64,000 nt of DNA, taken from Hydrogenovibrio thermophilus. GTDB lineage: Bacteria > Pseudomonadota > Gammaproteobacteria > Thiomicrospirales > Thiomicrospiraceae. How positions within the stretch are numbered: the first letter of the stretch is position 1; the number at the start of each line of letters is the position of its first letter. Under the pieces are notes generated by a model that did no database searches, was not told the DNA's origin, and saw nothing but the letters and a program-made list of their open reading frames with translations. Of the stretch, positions 7,636 through 14,853 are shown in pieces. The position numbers and the translations under genes were made by a program. Location of the stretch: the NCBI RefSeq assembly GCF_004028275.1, contig NZ_CP035033.1, positions 1,364,001 to 1,428,000 on the forward strand. Direction: 5' to 3'.

Positions 7636-10600
7636 TTAAGTGTCCTTGTTCGAAATGGTGGCCACGATGAGTTCGATGGCGTCGATTCGTTGTTTCATGT
7701 CAGGCATTGTATCGAAATATTTTAATTCCGTTTGCCCTTTTAGTTGATAGTTCTTCGGGTGATTTTGAATCAATTTAATCAATTCCACCGGGTTGATGTT
7801 GGGGCTGTCGCCGAATTGGATACGAATCATCGACTCGGACGCTTCCAGTTTTTTCAGGTTCAGCGGTTCAATCAACAGCTTGACACGCGTGGCCTCGAAC
7901 AGGTTTTTGACCTGTGGCGGTAACAGCCCGAAACGGTCGATCATTTCCACTTCCAGTTCCTGTAAGCCGTTGGTGTTGTCGGCACTGGCGATGCGTTTGT
8001 AGAACACCAGACGGGTGTGGATGTCCGGCAGATAGTCTTCCGGAATCAAGGCCGGTAAACCGAGTTCGATTTCCGCGCCGGTGTGGAGCTTGGCCTCCAA
8101 CTCGGGTTGTTTGCCGGATTTTAACGATTTGACGGCGCGTTCCAGCAATTCCGAATAGAGACCGAAACCGATTTCCTGAATTTGGCCGGATTGGCCGTCG
8201 CCCAGCAGTTCACCCGCGCCACGGATTTCCAAATCATGGCTGGCAAGCATGAACCCGGCACCGAGGGTATCGTGCTTGGCGATGGCAGTGAGGCGTTTTT
8301 CCGCATCGGCGGTCATCAGGCTTTTACCGGCAGTGAACATATAGGCGTAGGCTTTGTGGTGCGAACGTCCGACACGGCCGCGTAACTGATGCAATTGCGC
8401 CAGGCCAAATTTGTCGGCGCGGTGAATCAGAATGGTGTTGGCGGTTGGAATGTCGATGCCGGTTTCGATAATGGTGGTGCAGACCAGAATGTTGAAACGA
8501 CGGTGATAAAAATTCTGCATCACCTGTTCGAGTTCACGCTCGTGCATTTGGCCGTGGGCGACGTCCACCTTGGCTTCCGGCAGGAGTTCGCGCATGTCTT
8601 CCGCCATCTGTTCGATGCGGTCGACGTTGTTGTAAAGCAGGTAAATCTGCCCGCCACGACGGATTTCACGCAGACAGGCTTCTTTGACCACATCCGGGTT
8701 CCATTCCAGCACGAAGGTTTGCACCGCCAGACGTTTGGCCGGCGGCGTGGCGATAATCGACAGGTCACGCAAATCGTTCATCGCCATGTTCAGGGTTCTT
8801 GGAATCGGTGTGGCGGTCATGGTGAGCACGTCCACCTCGGTGCGGAGTTTCTTGAGCTGTTCTTTCTGGCGCACGCCGAAACGGTGTTCTTCGTCGATGA
8901 TAATCAGGCCGAGGTTGTCGAATTTCATGTCGCCCTGAATCAGCTTATGGGTGCCGATGACGATATCGACCTGTTTGTTTTGAACCGCTTCGAGAATCTG
9001 TTTGGTTTCCTTGGCGGTTTGGAAACGGGATAAGCCTTCAATGCGCACCGGCCAGTCGGCAAAACGGTTTTTAAAGTTTTCCATGTGTTGCTGCGCCAGC
9101 AGGGTGGTGGGCACCAAAACCGCGACCTGTTTGCCGGCGTAAGCGGCAATGAAGGCGGCGCGCATGGCCACTTCGGTTTTGCCGAAGCCGACGTCGCCGC
9201 AAATGAGGCGGTCCATCGGTTTGCTGGCTTGCATGTCATGCACCACCGCATCGATAGCGGCTTCCTGATCGGGTGTTTCCTCGAATGGGAAGCTGGCGCT
9301 GAAGCGGGCGTAGGCTTCTTCGTCGGTTTCGAAAGAATGACCAGGCCTGGCTTCGCGCTGGGCGTAGATGTCGAGCAGTTCGGCGGCGACGTCACGGACT
9401 TTTTCGGCGGCTTTGCGTTTGGCCTTGTCCCATTTGTCGGAACCGAGTTTGTGTAACGGTGCGGTTTCGGCGCTGGCGCCGGTGTAACGGCTGATGAGGT
9501 GCAGCGAGGTGACGGGCACGTACAATTTGGCTTCGCCGGCGTATTCGATCATCAGGAATTCGTGTTCTTCACCTTGGATGGTCATGGTTTCCAGGCCAAG
9601 GTAGCGGCCGACCCCGTGGTCGAAATGCACAATCGGGCTGCCGATGTCCAGTTCGATGAGGTTGGAGATGGCGGTGTCGAATTCGGAGTGTTTGCGCTTA
9701 CGGCGTCGTTTCTGAATGACGGTTTGGCCGAAAATCTGCGCTTCGGAAATCAGGCAGAAATCCGGTGTGAAGATGGATTCTTCCAACGGGCCGACTACGA
9801 TTTGATGTGGTAAATCGTTGTGTTTGAACGCATTCCAATCATCGACGATTTTCGGGACTTTTCCTTTAAATTCAGTATGTTTTCCGAGCAGTGTTAACAG
9901 CGTTTCTCGGCGTCCGGTGGATTCGGCGCAATACATAATACGGCCGCCGTATTCGCTTTGGAATTGATCCAGAAAGGCATTGAGTTTGGCCATCGGGTAT
10001 TCGCTATTGGCCTGCACATTTAAATCCGGTGCCGGCAGGGTTTTGAAGTCCACTTGGTTTTTGCCGGAGGCGATGCGCTCCAGTTGAATGCGATGATAGT
10101 TTTTCAGGGCGCTGAAAATGTCGTTTTCGGATTGAATCAGTTCTTCCGGCGGCAGTACCGGATAATCCGGGTTGTGCTGTGCGATTTGATACCGCTCACG
10201 GTAATCGCGCCAGTTTTGTTTAATGGCGTCCTGAATGGCCGGTTGGCTGAAGAACAGACTGTTTTCGGGAATGTAATCAAACAGCGTGGCGGTTTCGGGG
10301 TGAAATAATGACAGGTAATATTCCAGGCCATCAACGGTCTGGCCGTTATGAACCGCTTGGTACAACAGGCTGTTGCGGGATTCGTCACCGAAGGTTTGGC
10401 GGAAGCGTTGTTTGAATAAGGTGATGCCGTCCGGGTTGAGGTCGTATTCCTTGGCGGGCAGGAGTTCGATTTGGTCAATCTGCTCGGTGCTGAGCTGGGT
10501 TTCCGGGTCGAAACAGCGGATGGTTTCGACTTCGTCGTCGAACAAGTCCAATCGGAAAGGCGTGCGGCTGCCCATCGGGAAGAGGTCGATAATCGAGCCG

Positions 10601-11109
10601 CGCACCGCAAATTCGCCGTGTTCCATCACCTGGCTGACGCGTTGATAGCCGCCGGATTCCAAACGTTGGGTAAAGGGTTCGATGTCGAGGGTATCGCCAC
10701 ACTTTAATATAAAGGTGTATTGTTCGATGAACGTATGGGGAACCACTTTCTGCAACAGGGTACTGACCGGCAGGATCAAAATGCCTTTTTGGGTTTGCGG
10801 CAGTTGATAGAGCGTGCGCAGGCGTTGCGAGATGATGTCCTGATGCGGTGAAAACTGGTCATAGGGCAGGGTTTCCCATTCCGGAAAGTTCAGAATCGAA
10901 AGGTCGCCTTCGGAAAAGAAGTTCAGCGCGTCTTCATATTTATTGGCTTCGCTCATGTCCTGAGTCAGCAAAACCACCAGGCCTGGGTGGTTTCGGGCTT
11001 TTTCCATGATGACGAGCGCGTCTTCGGCCGAGGTGTTGAGCGACCAGTGTGACGTCTGGCCTTTTAGTGGAACCTGATCGGCTTCCAGCAACGAGTAGGG
11101 TTTGGGCAT
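7636..11109 (-). CDS. mfd: Transcription-repair coupling factor Mfd
   Basis: Mfd displaces RNA polymerase stalled at DNA damage and recruits UvrA. The 1157 residues match the family (about 1150). In order are the UvrB-like N-terminal domains, the RNA-polymerase interaction region (FDHGVGRYLGLETM), the RecG-like translocase with Walker A GDVGFGKTE and DEEH box, the TRG motif region (RGRVGRS), and the C-terminal regulatory domain. I chose the ATG at 11109, where similarity begins. A 45-residue upward extension is not supported. csiV follows without a gap. Two CCAGGCCTGG copies lie within it. Confidence 0.95.
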   Translation of the reverse strand: MPKPYSLLEADQVPLKGQTSHWSLNTSAEDALVIMEKARNHPGLVVLLTQDMSEANKYEDALNFFSEGDLSILNFPEWETLPYDQFSPHQDIISQRLRTLYQLPQTQKGILILPVSTLLQKVVPHTFIEQYTFILKCGDTLDIEPFTQRLESGGYQRVSQVMEHGEFAVRGSIIDLFPMGSRTPFRLDLFDDEVETIRCFDPETQLSTEQIDQIELLPAKEYDLNPDGITLFKQRFRQTFGDESRNSLLYQAVHNGQTVDGLEYYLSLFHPETATLFDYIPENSLFFSQPAIQDAIKQNWRDYRERYQIAQHNPDYPVLPPEELIQSENDIFSALKNYHRIQLERIASGKNQVDFKTLPAPDLNVQANSEYPMAKLNAFLDQFQSEYGGRIMYCAESTGRRETLLTLLGKHTEFKGKVPKIVDDWNAFKHNDLPHQIVVGPLEESIFTPDFCLISEAQIFGQTVIQKRRRKRKHSEFDTAISNLIELDIGSPIVHFDHGVGRYLGLETMTIQGEEHEFLMIEYAGEAKLYVPVTSLHLISRYTGASAETAPLHKLGSDKWDKAKRKAAEKVRDVAAELLDIYAQREARPGHSFETDEEAYARFSASFPFEETPDQEAAIDAVVHDMQASKPMDRLICGDVGFGKTEVAMRAAFIAAYAGKQVAVLVPTTLLAQQHMENFKNRFADWPVRIEGLSRFQTAKETKQILEAVQNKQVDIVIGTHKLIQGDMKFDNLGLIIIDEEHRFGVRQKEQLKKLRTEVDVLTMTATPIPRTLNMAMNDLRDLSIIATPPAKRLAVQTFVLEWNPDVVKEACLREIRRGGQIYLLYNNVDRIEQMAEDMRELLPEAKVDVAHGQMHERELEQVMQNFYHRRFNILVCTTIIETGIDIPTANTILIHRADKFGLAQLHQLRGRVGRSHHKAYAYMFTAGKSLMTADAEKRLTAIAKHDTLGAGFMLASHDLEIRGAGELLGDGQSGQIQEIGFGLYSELLERAVKSLKSGKQPELEAKLHTGAEIELGLPALIPEDYLPDIHTRLVFYKRIASADNTNGLQELEVEMIDRFGLLPPQVKNLFEATRVKLLIEPLNLKKLEASESMIRIQFGDSPNINPVELIKLIQNHPKNYQLKGQTELKYFDTMPDMKQRIDAIELIVATISNKDT
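9341..9350. repeat. CCAGGCCTGG palindrome copy inside mfd
   Basis: A full 10-base copy, read on the minus strand as Arg-Pro-Gly in mfd. Confidence 0.9.
10977..10986. repeat. Second CCAGGCCTGG palindrome copy inside mfd
   Basis: A full 10-base copy, read on the minus strand as Pro-Gly-Leu near the Mfd N-terminus. This is a different frame from the copy at 9341. Confidence 0.9.
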
Positions 11110-11267
11110 GCGATTTTCTATGACTTTGGGTTTGTATTGGTTTGAAAAATGACGGTATTTTATCAAAATATTGCTTTCAACTGGCGCTTTCAGGCACCAT
11201 AATAGCCGCGCAAACATCAGTTTAAATGAATCGCATCGTATCAATAAGCAAAAAGGTTGAATGAATC

Positions 11268-12491
11268 ATGAACGGTCGCTGGGCTTACAACTGGGTACAG
11301 ATTTTGGCACACCATTATGTCTTGAGCGCAGTGGTGTTCGCGGCAGCTTGGTTGTTGGCACTGGCCGGGGTGTTCAAGTCACCGGCCTTATTCGAGCAAA
11401 TGAATTTCATGTGGGTTTGGTTGGCGTTGGCCTTGATGGGTGGGGTGTCGGTCAAGGTCATGGATTCGGTCAAGACCGGCGTTTTGGTGTTTGGGCTGAG
11501 TTTGGCGGTGTTGGGCGCGGTACTCGGGTTGTTGGGCTGGTTCGGCTTGGCGTTGACTGAAACGTCGGTACTGGGCATGGTGGTGGTGTTGGCGCTGATG
11601 ATGAGCAATTTGGTGCATGTGATGGCGGCCTTGTTGCGTGAAATGGCGCGGGGCGGGTTTCAACATGATGCTTTAGCCGAAGCATTGAATATGAATGCCG
11701 CGCCGGTGTTTTTGTCGAACCTGACGACCGGTTTGGGGTTTGCTGTCGCGGCTTTTTACGATGCCCGTTTGCTGGATGCGGCCTGGGTTGTCTTGCTAGG
11801 CGCGCTAGTGAGTTATGCGATGCTGATGACGGGCTTGCCGCTGATTCTGTTGCGTTGGTTTTTGGAGTTCCGCGTCGGGCATTATGAAGACCGCCACGGG
11901 TTTATCGGTTTGGCGGAAAAATTTCAGACCTATCCGAAATGGGTGACGCTCATGTTGTGGTTGTCGGCGTTGGTGGTGGTGATGAGCGCCGTGTATCTGT
12001 GGCGCAAGCTGGATAACCTCAATGCGGTGGGCGTGATGTTAGCCACGAGTTTTGTGGTGTTATTAGTATTTTGGCATGACCTTAAAATAACTTTGATGAC
12101 CCTATTAAGCAGTGTTTTGTCGGTTATTTTGGTTTTGACTGCGTATTTTTCCGTGCAGAATTTCCAATCGATTTCGGCGGTTATTTTGATTGTGCCGCTC
12201 GGGATAGTATTGGATGATGCCATTCATTACTTTGCGCGTTACTTGAAATCAAAACGCGGTTACTTTAACGATGTGGAATCCTGTCATCGGTTTGCGTTAG
12301 CCAGCGTGGGGCGCCCGATTTGGGCCACGACACAAATTCTGATTGCCGGACTATTGGTGTTGAGTTTCAACGAAAATTCATTGGTGCAACAGGCAAGTTT
12401 GATTACCCTTTTGGCGGTTTTATTGGCGTCTTATATTGTCTTGGTTTGGCTGCCGGCCTTGGGCTTGAAAAAAGCGAAAAACAACCGCTAA
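11268..12491 (+). CDS. Compact RND/MMPL-like membrane protein without periplasmic domains
   Basis: The 407-residue protein appears to have 12 membrane segments in two halves of six. The second half carries the RND hallmark GIVLDDAIHYFARY, followed by GRPIWATTQILIAGLLVLSF. The first half has the matching but degenerate LMMSNLVHVM, then APVFLSNLTTGLGFAVA. In RND transporters each half has a large periplasmic porter domain after its first helix. Here those places hold only about 10 residues, which explains the length of 407 against 770-1050. The acidic pair is kept only in the second half. The function is unknown. It is divergent from mfd. Confidence 0.7.
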   Translation: MNGRWAYNWVQILAHHYVLSAVVFAAAWLLALAGVFKSPALFEQMNFMWVWLALALMGGVSVKVMDSVKTGVLVFGLSLAVLGAVLGLLGWFGLALTETSVLGMVVVLALMMSNLVHVMAALLREMARGGFQHDALAEALNMNAAPVFLSNLTTGLGFAVAAFYDARLLDAAWVVLLGALVSYAMLMTGLPLILLRWFLEFRVGHYEDRHGFIGLAEKFQTYPKWVTLMLWLSALVVVMSAVYLWRKLDNLNAVGVMLATSFVVLLVFWHDLKITLMTLLSSVLSVILVLTAYFSVQNFQSISAVILIVPLGIVLDDAIHYFARYLKSKRGYFNDVESCHRFALASVGRPIWATTQILIAGLLVLSFNENSLVQQASLITLLAVLLASYIVLVWLPALGLKKAKNNR

Positions 12492-12795: not shown

Positions 12796-14103
12796 ATGGC
12801 AACAATTGTTGTAGTAGGATCAAGCACCGGTGGTCTACCGATGGCTTACGATGTTCGTAAGCACCTAGGCAAAGAGCATACCATCAAAGTCGTAAACGCA
12901 ATCGACGAGTTCAATTTTGTCCCGTCCAACCCTTGGGTGGCGGTTGGCTGGCGTAAGCCGGAAGACATTTCCTTTAAATTGGAACCGCATTTGACGCGTA
13001 AAGGCATTGAGTTTTACCACCAGACTGTGACGAAGCTGGATGCTCCGAACAACAAAATCACTTTGGATGACGGTAGCGAAATGGACTACGACTACCTGAT
13101 TCTGGCCACCGGTCCGGCATTGGCTTTCGAGGAAATCGAAGGGTTTGGTCCGAAGAGCCATGGCGGGAATACGGTTTCCGTTTGTACGACACCGCACGCG
13201 ACTGAAGCGTTTGAACAATGGGAAGAATTCTGCGAAAACCCTGGCCCAATCGTTGTGGGCGCGGTACAAGGCGCATCCTGTTACGGTCCGGCTTACGAGT
13301 TCGCGATGATCATGGAAACCGATTTGCGTAAGCGTAAGATTCGTAGCCAGGTTCCGATGACGTTTGTAACGTCCGAACCTTATATTGGCCACTTGGGTCT
13401 GGGTGGTGTTGGTGATTCCAAAGGGTTGATGGAAACCGAAATGCGTAACCGTCACATCAACTGGATTTGCAACGCAAAAGTGACCAAAATCGAAGACGGT
13501 AAAATGTATGTCGACGAGCACAACAATAAAGGTGACGTCATCGATCAGCACGAACTGCCGTTCAAATATTCCATGATGTTGCCGGCGTTTAAAGGTTCCA
13601 AGTTCCTGCAAGAATTGGCCGAGCCTGAAAACATGGGTGGTCCTTTGGTTAACCCTCGTGGTTTCGTTAAAGTCGATAGCTATAGCCGTAACCCGGCGTT
13701 CCACAATATCTATGCATTGGGTGTTGGGATCGCCATTCCTCCGGTTGAAGCGACGCCAGTTCCTGTCGGAACGCCAAAAACCGGTTTGATGATCGAGTCG
13801 ATGGTGACCGCCATTTGTCATAACATTGAAGCGAACCTGGAAGGTAAAGAGCCACACGAAGAGCCGACTTGGAACACTGTGTGTCTGGCCGATATGGGCG
13901 ATACCGGTGCCGCGTTTGTGGCCTTGCCACAGATTCCACCGCGTAACTTGACGTGGGCGAAACGTGGTAAATGGGTTCACTTGGCGAAAATCGCGTTTGA
14001 AAAATACTTCATCCGTAATATGAAAGCCGGTAACTCCGAGCCGATTTACCAGAAGTACATCATGAAAATGTTGGGTATCAACCGTTTGAAATCCGACAAA
14101 TAA
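12796..14103 (+). CDS. sqr: Sulfide:quinone oxidoreductase
   Basis: This FAD protein oxidises sulfide to sulfur and passes electrons to quinone at the cytoplasmic membrane. The 435 residues start with a dinucleotide-fold glycine motif (VVVGSSTGG, 5-13) and contain the second binding stretch LILATGPA (101-108). The three redox cysteines expected for the family are visible: C130 in SVCTTP, C162 in GASCYGP and C363 in TVCLADMGDTG. The VPVGTPKTG quinone/FAD region is present, and the C-terminus has basic and aromatic residues suited to membrane attachment. The exact SQR subtype is not certain. A clear terminator follows. Confidence 0.88.
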   Translation: MATIVVVGSSTGGLPMAYDVRKHLGKEHTIKVVNAIDEFNFVPSNPWVAVGWRKPEDISFKLEPHLTRKGIEFYHQTVTKLDAPNNKITLDDGSEMDYDYLILATGPALAFEEIEGFGPKSHGGNTVSVCTTPHATEAFEQWEEFCENPGPIVVGAVQGASCYGPAYEFAMIMETDLRKRKIRSQVPMTFVTSEPYIGHLGLGGVGDSKGLMETEMRNRHINWICNAKVTKIEDGKMYVDEHNNKGDVIDQHELPFKYSMMLPAFKGSKFLQELAEPENMGGPLVNPRGFVKVDSYSRNPAFHNIYALGVGIAIPPVEATPVPVGTPKTGLMIESMVTAICHNIEANLEGKEPHEEPTWNTVCLADMGDTGAAFVALPQIPPRNLTWAKRGKWVHLAKIAFEKYFIRNMKAGNSEPIYQKYIMKMLGINRLKSDK

Positions 14104-14226: not shown

Positions 14227-14853
14227 ATGAATTTAGCCGCCACCCTTCATTATCTGGACCTGCTTGGAACCGTCGTGTTTGCCATGACCGGCCTGCTGGC
14301 CGCCAGCCGAAAGCAACTTGATTTGTTCGGCGCCATTGTCATTGCGATGGTGACGGCTGTCGGCGGCGGCACCTTGCGTGATTTGATTCTGGATCAGCCG
14401 GTTTTCTGGTTGTCGGAAAATATCTATATTTATGTGGTGGTGATTTCCACCTTGTTCTTGTTTTTCTACGCACGCTTTCGCAGTTTACCGACACGCTTGT
14501 TATTGTTTTTGGATGCGTTGGGGTTGGCGGTGTTCAGTGTCATCGGGGCGCAAAAGGCGATGGCCTTAGGATTGTCCGACCCGATTGTAATCATGACCGG
14601 GGTCATGACCGGAGTGGTCGGCGGGGTGATTCGCGATGTGCTGATGGGCGAAGTCCCACTGATTTTCCGTAAAGAAATTTATGCCACGGCGTCCTTTGTC
14701 GGCATCAGCTTATTGCTGCTGATGGTCGGTTGGGGCGTGTCGGTCGACGTTTCGGTCATTGTATCGATTTTAGTGATTTTCATCTTGCGGGCCTGGGCGG
14801 TGCAGTTCAATATCGGACTGCCGGTGTTCCAACCCGTGAATACGCAGGATTAA
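14227..14853 (+). CDS. TRIC-type cation channel family protein (UPF0126, YadS/YicG-like)
   Basis: The 208 residues contain about seven hydrophobic segments in two related halves. Each half has the family's glycine/arginine-aspartate motif: AVGGGTLRDLIL (about 54-65) and GVVGGVIRDVLMGE (about 129-142). Prokaryotic members form trimeric potassium-permeable channels in some studied species; the physiological role in bacteria is unclear. The gene follows sqr but is separated from it by a terminator. lolC starts 15 bases downstream, so lolC may be co-transcribed. Confidence 0.85.
   Translation: MNLAATLHYLDLLGTVVFAMTGLLAASRKQLDLFGAIVIAMVTAVGGGTLRDLILDQPVFWLSENIYIYVVVISTLFLFFYARFRSLPTRLLLFLDALGLAVFSVIGAQKAMALGLSDPIVIMTGVMTGVVGGVIRDVLMGEVPLIFRKEIYATASFVGISLLLLMVGWGVSVDVSVIVSILVIFILRAWAVQFNIGLPVFQPVNTQD

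Follow-up and report, generated by a model that had tools for sequence, protein, structure and literature searches.

RND proteins are understood as a membrane proton engine geared to large periplasmic cargo-handling domains, and the locus described here raises the question of what such an engine could do in a protein from which those domains are missing. The soluble domains concerned lie between TM1 and TM2 and between TM7 and TM8, and are a feature of the RND superfamily (PMC8277102). Within the window, the 64,000 nucleotides of Hydrogenovibrio thermophilus DNA analysed here (contig NZ_CP035033.1, positions 1,364,001 to 1,428,000), an open reading frame at 11268-12491 of the forward strand, stop codon included, encodes 407 residues with twelve predicted TM helices. 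A sequence-only reading had called the product RND-like without both porter domains; the 407-residue frame lies exactly where it was placed and both quoted motifs are present. Our search of the open-access literature, with most subscription papers lying outside it, found no account of RND proteins that lack periplasmic domains. We describe this porterless protein from its reading frame, orthologue alignment, AlphaFold model and Foldseek matches, and propose a model for its function.

Results

The short length of the protein is genuine. All 23 orthologues in the residue alignment fall between 402 and 442 residues, a range that refers to the measured orthologues, and they share a common start site at which M1 and W9 are invariant and W5 is nearly so, which backs the assigned start codon. 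AlphaFold2, given five porterless sequences only and with full-length RND proteins left out of the alignment, returned a model of twelve long helices (pLDDT 86.7, pTM 0.87) in the RND arrangement of two pseudosymmetric six-helix bundles. At the TM1-TM2 junction (residues 38-46; 11379-11405, forward strand), the site of the first porter domain in full-length RND proteins, helices 17-37 and 47-64 are separated by 9 residues, as opposed to about 200 in full-length relatives. At the TM7-TM8 junction (residues 246-251; 12003-12020, forward strand), the site of the second, helices 223-247 and 251-269 are nearly contiguous, with a link of 3-6 residues where full-length relatives again have about 200. 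Links of this size leave no space for porter domains, and a soluble periplasmic domain at either junction is absent from the model and from every aligned orthologue. The positive charges of the protein fall on the sides expected under RND topology.

Searched against the PDB with Foldseek, the model matched SecDF, MmpL3/4/5, NPC1/NCR1, Dispatched and AcrB/AdeB with a probability of 1.00 and query TM-scores of 0.64-0.74, so that the predicted fold is that of RND proteins and not an unlike one. That the porterless protein is an RND membrane core is, in our judgement, almost certain, and its description as RND-like without both porter domains is borne out by the fold, by the profile match and by two halves that match full-length relatives in order.

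The profile of the orthologues matches solved RND pumps at E 9e-11. The nearest model for 22 of the 23 members is HAE3 TIGR00921 (NCBIfam), which they match over only part of its length, with a best E of 1.2e-16 and an E of 1.9e-8 for the window protein, whose 32.8 bits fall short of the curated cut-off of 351.9. The other matches are likewise far below this cut-off. By these E values the RND kinship of the family is beyond chance. Pfam assigns the window protein to no family even at E ≤ 10: it lies below the gathering score of MMPL PF03176 (6/23 members match at E ≤ 0.01), and it stands outside AcrB/AcrD/AcrF PF00873 both by the family model and by the porter and docking domains, which the AlphaFold model lacks. 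Sequence similarity to SecDF is weak, with three of 23 members matching at E ≤ 0.001. A sterol-sensing-like role, raised in the sequence-only reading, is compatible at the level of the fold only, as Sterol-sensing PF12349 has no match in the window protein and matches just two of the 23 members (best E 1e-4). Assignment to the MMPL, SSD, HAE3 or AcrB family models was rejected, every score being below cut-off. The protein is therefore built on the RND core plan, yet is without the defining soluble domains and below the cut-off of every RND family model to which it was compared.

The porterless gene is present in 41 of the 63 genomes of the window's GTDB family (the Hydrogenovibrio/Thiomicrorhabdus/Sulfurivirga group), a family of sulfur-oxidizing gammaproteobacteria, one copy each, with Sulfurivirga caldicuralii and Thiomicrospira sp. 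WB1 among the named carriers; one of the 41 genes (G024) is cut by a contig end. Short length is common to every orthologue in the family, and none has porter domains. Among 369 gammaproteobacterial genomes sampled, porterless matches at E ≤ 1e-30 were confined to the same GTDB family, and among 398 genomes sampled across the phylum the window's own genome alone matched at E ≤ 1e-32. In a scan of genome contigs, four porterless loci, all from Thiotrichales, ranked above 76 full-length or fragment loci among the matches listed; very distant porterless RND proteins may have escaped these class-, phylum- and contig-wide searches. A phage or mobile origin was rejected: viral contigs held no relatives, the fold search gave no match to a viral protein at E ≤ 0.001, and the gene is inherited at a single locus.

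In four close pairs of porterless genes dN/dS was 0.065, 0.065, 0.103 and 0.099, values of about 0.07-0.10 that indicate purifying selection on the protein, and we hold with great confidence that it retains a function under selection. In a comparison of genomes G000 and G010 the porterless protein is 91% identical, and its neighbours SQR, UPF0126, LolC and Mfd reach about 98%; for G000 and G009 the figures are 56% for the porterless protein and 97% for SQR. The porterless protein thus changes faster than its neighbours, and much faster than SQR. A degraded copy with seven stops lies between mfd and sqr in one further genome (G057, L146/L174; G057:C1:715300-716300), and the gene has therefore been lost at least once.

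The two halves of the protein also bear on its ancestry. When full-length relatives are scored with a profile built from the first half, their N-terminal halves reach about 60-90 bits and their C-terminal halves about 5-30; a profile of the second half shows the opposite preference. As the halves match full-length relatives in order, the ancestor was a complete twelve-helix RND protein from which both porter domains were lost. A fusion of two like halves, or a half-size RND protein, was rejected because each half fits the corresponding half of the full-length relatives. In a tree of the membrane part, which has long branches, a weakly supported branch (70/53) sets all the porterless proteins to one side, a placement that would be compatible with a single origin. 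Descent from the full-length RND proteins of about 790 residues found in the same bacterial family is unsupported, those proteins forming a separate clade (99/99).

The putative relay is centred on TM10, where the motif GIVLDDAIHYFARY (residues 312-325; 12201-12242, forward strand) holds G312, D316, D317, H320 and R324, all invariant in 23/23 orthologues; the glycine, the aspartate pair and the histidine are invariant across full-length relatives as well. The centre of TM4, LMMSNLVHVM (residues 110-119; 11595-11624, forward strand), contains H117, conserved at 100% in porterless orthologues and full-length relatives alike, and places N114 at the position of the usual Asp. In the porterless orthologues position 114 is Asn in 18 and His in five of the 23, never Asp; of 82 full-length relatives 62 have the TM4 Asp and nine have Asn. 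The central titratable residues that RND proteins have in TM4, TM10 or both are here D316, D317 and H320 of TM10, the TM4 Asp being replaced by Asn or His. T153/T154 of TM5 are invariant in all 23 orthologues and common to full-length relatives, T354 of TM11 is nearly invariant, and the TM12 Asp of full-length relatives has been lost from the porterless family.

Orthologue alignment further identified two family-specific signatures on the cytoplasmic face. In the TM4-TM5 loop, REMARGGFQHDALAE (11637-11681, forward strand), M126, A127, R128, G129, Q132, D134 and E138 are invariant, of which A127 and Q132 are unlike the full-length relatives and D134 is present in only a third of them. In the TM6-TM7 linker, EFRVGHYEDRHG (11865-11900, forward strand), R202, V203, G204, D208, R209 and G211 are invariant, and E200, F201, G204 and the DRHG part are not common to full-length relatives. 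W269 is similarly fixed in the porterless family and not in full-length relatives. About 30 sites in the porterless orthologues follow this strict invariant pattern, and conservation averages 0.61 over the cytoplasmic segments, 0.53 over the TM segments and 0.37 over the periplasmic ones (cytoplasmic versus periplasmic, p 1e-10).

Directly downstream of the porterless gene lies a type-I, sqrA-type sulfide:quinone oxidoreductase (12796-14103, forward strand), which matches the Acidithiobacillus ferrooxidans-type SQR 3sz0 at E 2.7e-152 by phmmer. The divergent upstream neighbour is mfd, the transcription-repair coupling factor (7636-11244, reverse strand; likely start near 11109), which scores above cut-off for NCBIfam PRK10689/TIGR00580 and holds the same position in the genomes examined. 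The order in carriers is mfd, porterless gene, sqr, the last two on the same strand, and sqr is directly downstream in 40 of the 41 genomes, the remaining one being split by a contig end. Co-transcription is not assured given the 304 bp gap to sqr in the window. In genomes without the porterless gene mfd and sqr usually adjoin, and the UPF0126-like gene, lolC and lolD after them are mostly unchanged; the gene is therefore a cassette whose absence leaves the block undisturbed, and its adjacency to sqr is weak evidence of a shared role, because the mfd-sqr order is also kept without it. Window-type SQR occurs without the porterless gene in thirteen genomes (four of genus g2, eight of g3 and one of g6), and eight g6 genomes that lack window-type SQR lack the porterless gene too. 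One paper on Hydrogenovibrio speaks of sqrA and sqrF as two SQR genes and does not contain the term RND (PMC6501319), and Hydrogenovibrio strain 104 has no sqr (PMC11439405). The placement of the porterless gene beside sqr in Hydrogenovibrio was not found in the open-access literature searched, and a description may still exist.

Several minor observations concern the same neighbourhood. NCBIfam detects the window SQR (12796-14103) poorly, the best model, that of the type III selenoprotein SQR, giving 97.6 bits where the cut-off is 525, and seems to have no model for this type despite its closeness to the solved A. ferrooxidans-type enzyme. The UPF0126/TRIC-like membrane protein after sqr (14227-14853; Gly_transporter PF03458) is kept in most genomes examined and retains its place in several that are without the porterless gene. 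In two other genomes without the gene (L151/L152; G076, G074) the other neighbour of sqr is not UPF0126-lolCD but an open reading frame of about 445-468 residues that matches Mfd locally at 30-35%.

Discussion

We propose a model in which the porterless protein would act as a proton-driven RND core without porters, working on a membrane-embedded substrate or on a partner in the cytoplasm or the membrane, with sulfide oxidation as a plausible setting; taken as a whole, we hold this reading to be about as probable as its negation. The proton relay would be kept in a mirrored form, comprising two Asp and a His in TM10, H117 with Asn or His in TM4, a Thr in TM5 and a Thr in TM11. As other RND proteins do, the two six-helix halves would rock when protons pass through the TM10 DDxxH and the TM4 His centre. 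With periplasmic cargo capture gone, this motion must act either within the membrane or on its cytoplasmic side. A target in the membrane could be a lipid, a quinone or a hydrophobic sulfur species that would be reached via grooves between the helices; alternatively, the target may be a protein at the cytoplasmic face, the side on which the family-specific conservation is found. We lean towards proton coupling on the strength of the relay residues, and the earlier suggestion of a minimal proton-coupled protein would be compatible with the invariant TM10 DDxxH.

The most likely setting for such a core would be sulfide oxidation beside SQR, in which the sulfane-sulfur product might be moved or released, or a quinone or SQR step tuned. 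This link is drawn because the SQR neighbour is fixed and the gene is absent from genomes without window-type SQR; shared ancestry and conserved gene order affect both observations, and for that reason a role tied to SQR or to sulfide oxidation is put forward only tentatively. The narrower proposal of a porter-free RND engine dedicated to sulfide oxidation, which would draw on the proton gradient in moving or releasing the membrane-embedded product of SQR or its quinone, or would act directly on SQR, we consider distinctly improbable.

The main rival to the proton-driven core, itself rather unlikely, is a sensor or scaffold of the sterol-sensing type, in which the core would bind a lipid or quinone and inform a partner in the cytoplasm or the membrane, perhaps SQR, with no net transport. 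Conservation focused on the cytoplasmic loops MARGxFQxDA and EFRVGxxxDRHG, and not on a periplasmic outlet, would suit such a sensor, as would the presence of NPC1, Dispatched and NCR1 among the fold matches and the weak Pfam Sterol-sensing hits in two of the 23 members, but the TM10 DDxxH would be needless for a passive sensor and is invariant in every orthologue. An engine without porters might instead require a partner, and as SecDF, the top fold match, is an RND core working mechanically for another complex, the porterless protein could be an energising subunit whose periplasmic cargo-handling part is provided in trans by another protein. We give this little credence, as the conserved neighbourhood holds only mfd, sqr, the UPF0126/TRIC-like gene and lolCD, with no periplasmic adaptor or porter-like gene, and conservation within the protein is lowest in its periplasmic loops.

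The sequence-only reading had also entertained a remnant kept for another role. That the protein is a remnant in the sense of a gene in decay, or a functionless product of deletion within a full-length RND pump, is hardly credible at all. Domains that are functional in relatives are indeed missing, and the G057 copy has degraded at the same place; the window copy is unlike that one, which shows what real decay looks like, and a deletion or pseudogene is ruled out here by the low dN/dS, which refutes decay for the window copy, and by the 41 family genomes that carry the gene, alongside the strict invariant pattern.

The proton-driven core that we favour can be set against known systems. The closest sequence relatives found are full-length HAE3-like/MMPL RND proteins of about 765-800 residues (for example L045, L050, L096 and L165), which match in both halves in register and share with the porterless family TTxxGF in TM5, GxxxDDxxH in TM10 and VGxxxWxT in TM11. 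These relatives have two periplasmic domains of about 200 residues, usually the TM4 Asp, and the TM12 Asp, whereas the porterless family is without these and has cytoplasmic signatures of its own. SecDF, the best fold match in the PDB, has an RND core in which the proton relay powers a task that is not classical efflux; unlike the porterless protein it has the P1 and P4 periplasmic domains (PMC8277102). AcrB-type (HAE1) pumps follow the same twelve-helix plan, and the relay is asymmetric in both, with an acidic pair in one repeat. In AcrB the two acidic relay residues lie in TM4 only and are paired with K940 in TM10 (PMC8277102), whereas the DD of the porterless protein is in TM10, the opposite repeat. 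AcrB-type pumps also carry large porter and docking domains and act in trimeric tripartite efflux, and the porterless protein has no porters. MmpL3 and other MmpL proteins match in fold (query TM-score up to 0.73), but their periplasmic porter domains are absent here. The helix bundle is homologous to that of NPC1 and Dispatched, which with Patched are sterol-sensing-domain proteins; all three have extracellular or lumenal domains, which the porterless protein does not.

A selected family consisting of the engine only would allow the membrane core to be studied alone, be it for proton conduction, lipid flipping, the binding of sterol-like molecules or quinones, or the driving of a partner. At about 400 residues the protein is also small enough to serve as a convenient subject for structural studies and mutagenesis of the RND proton relay. 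If the link to SQR is true, sulfide oxidation in vent bacteria has a component that had gone unrecognised, and if the reading as an engine of sulfide oxidation is true, it provides an RND protein that works wholly without periplasmic porter domains.

A final observation concerns full-length HAE3-like RND proteins of about 780-818 residues (L156-L164), which are found in five of the eight g3 genomes without the porterless gene versus three of the 24 with it (Fisher p 0.012). This excess may represent a functional replacement or mere clade structure.
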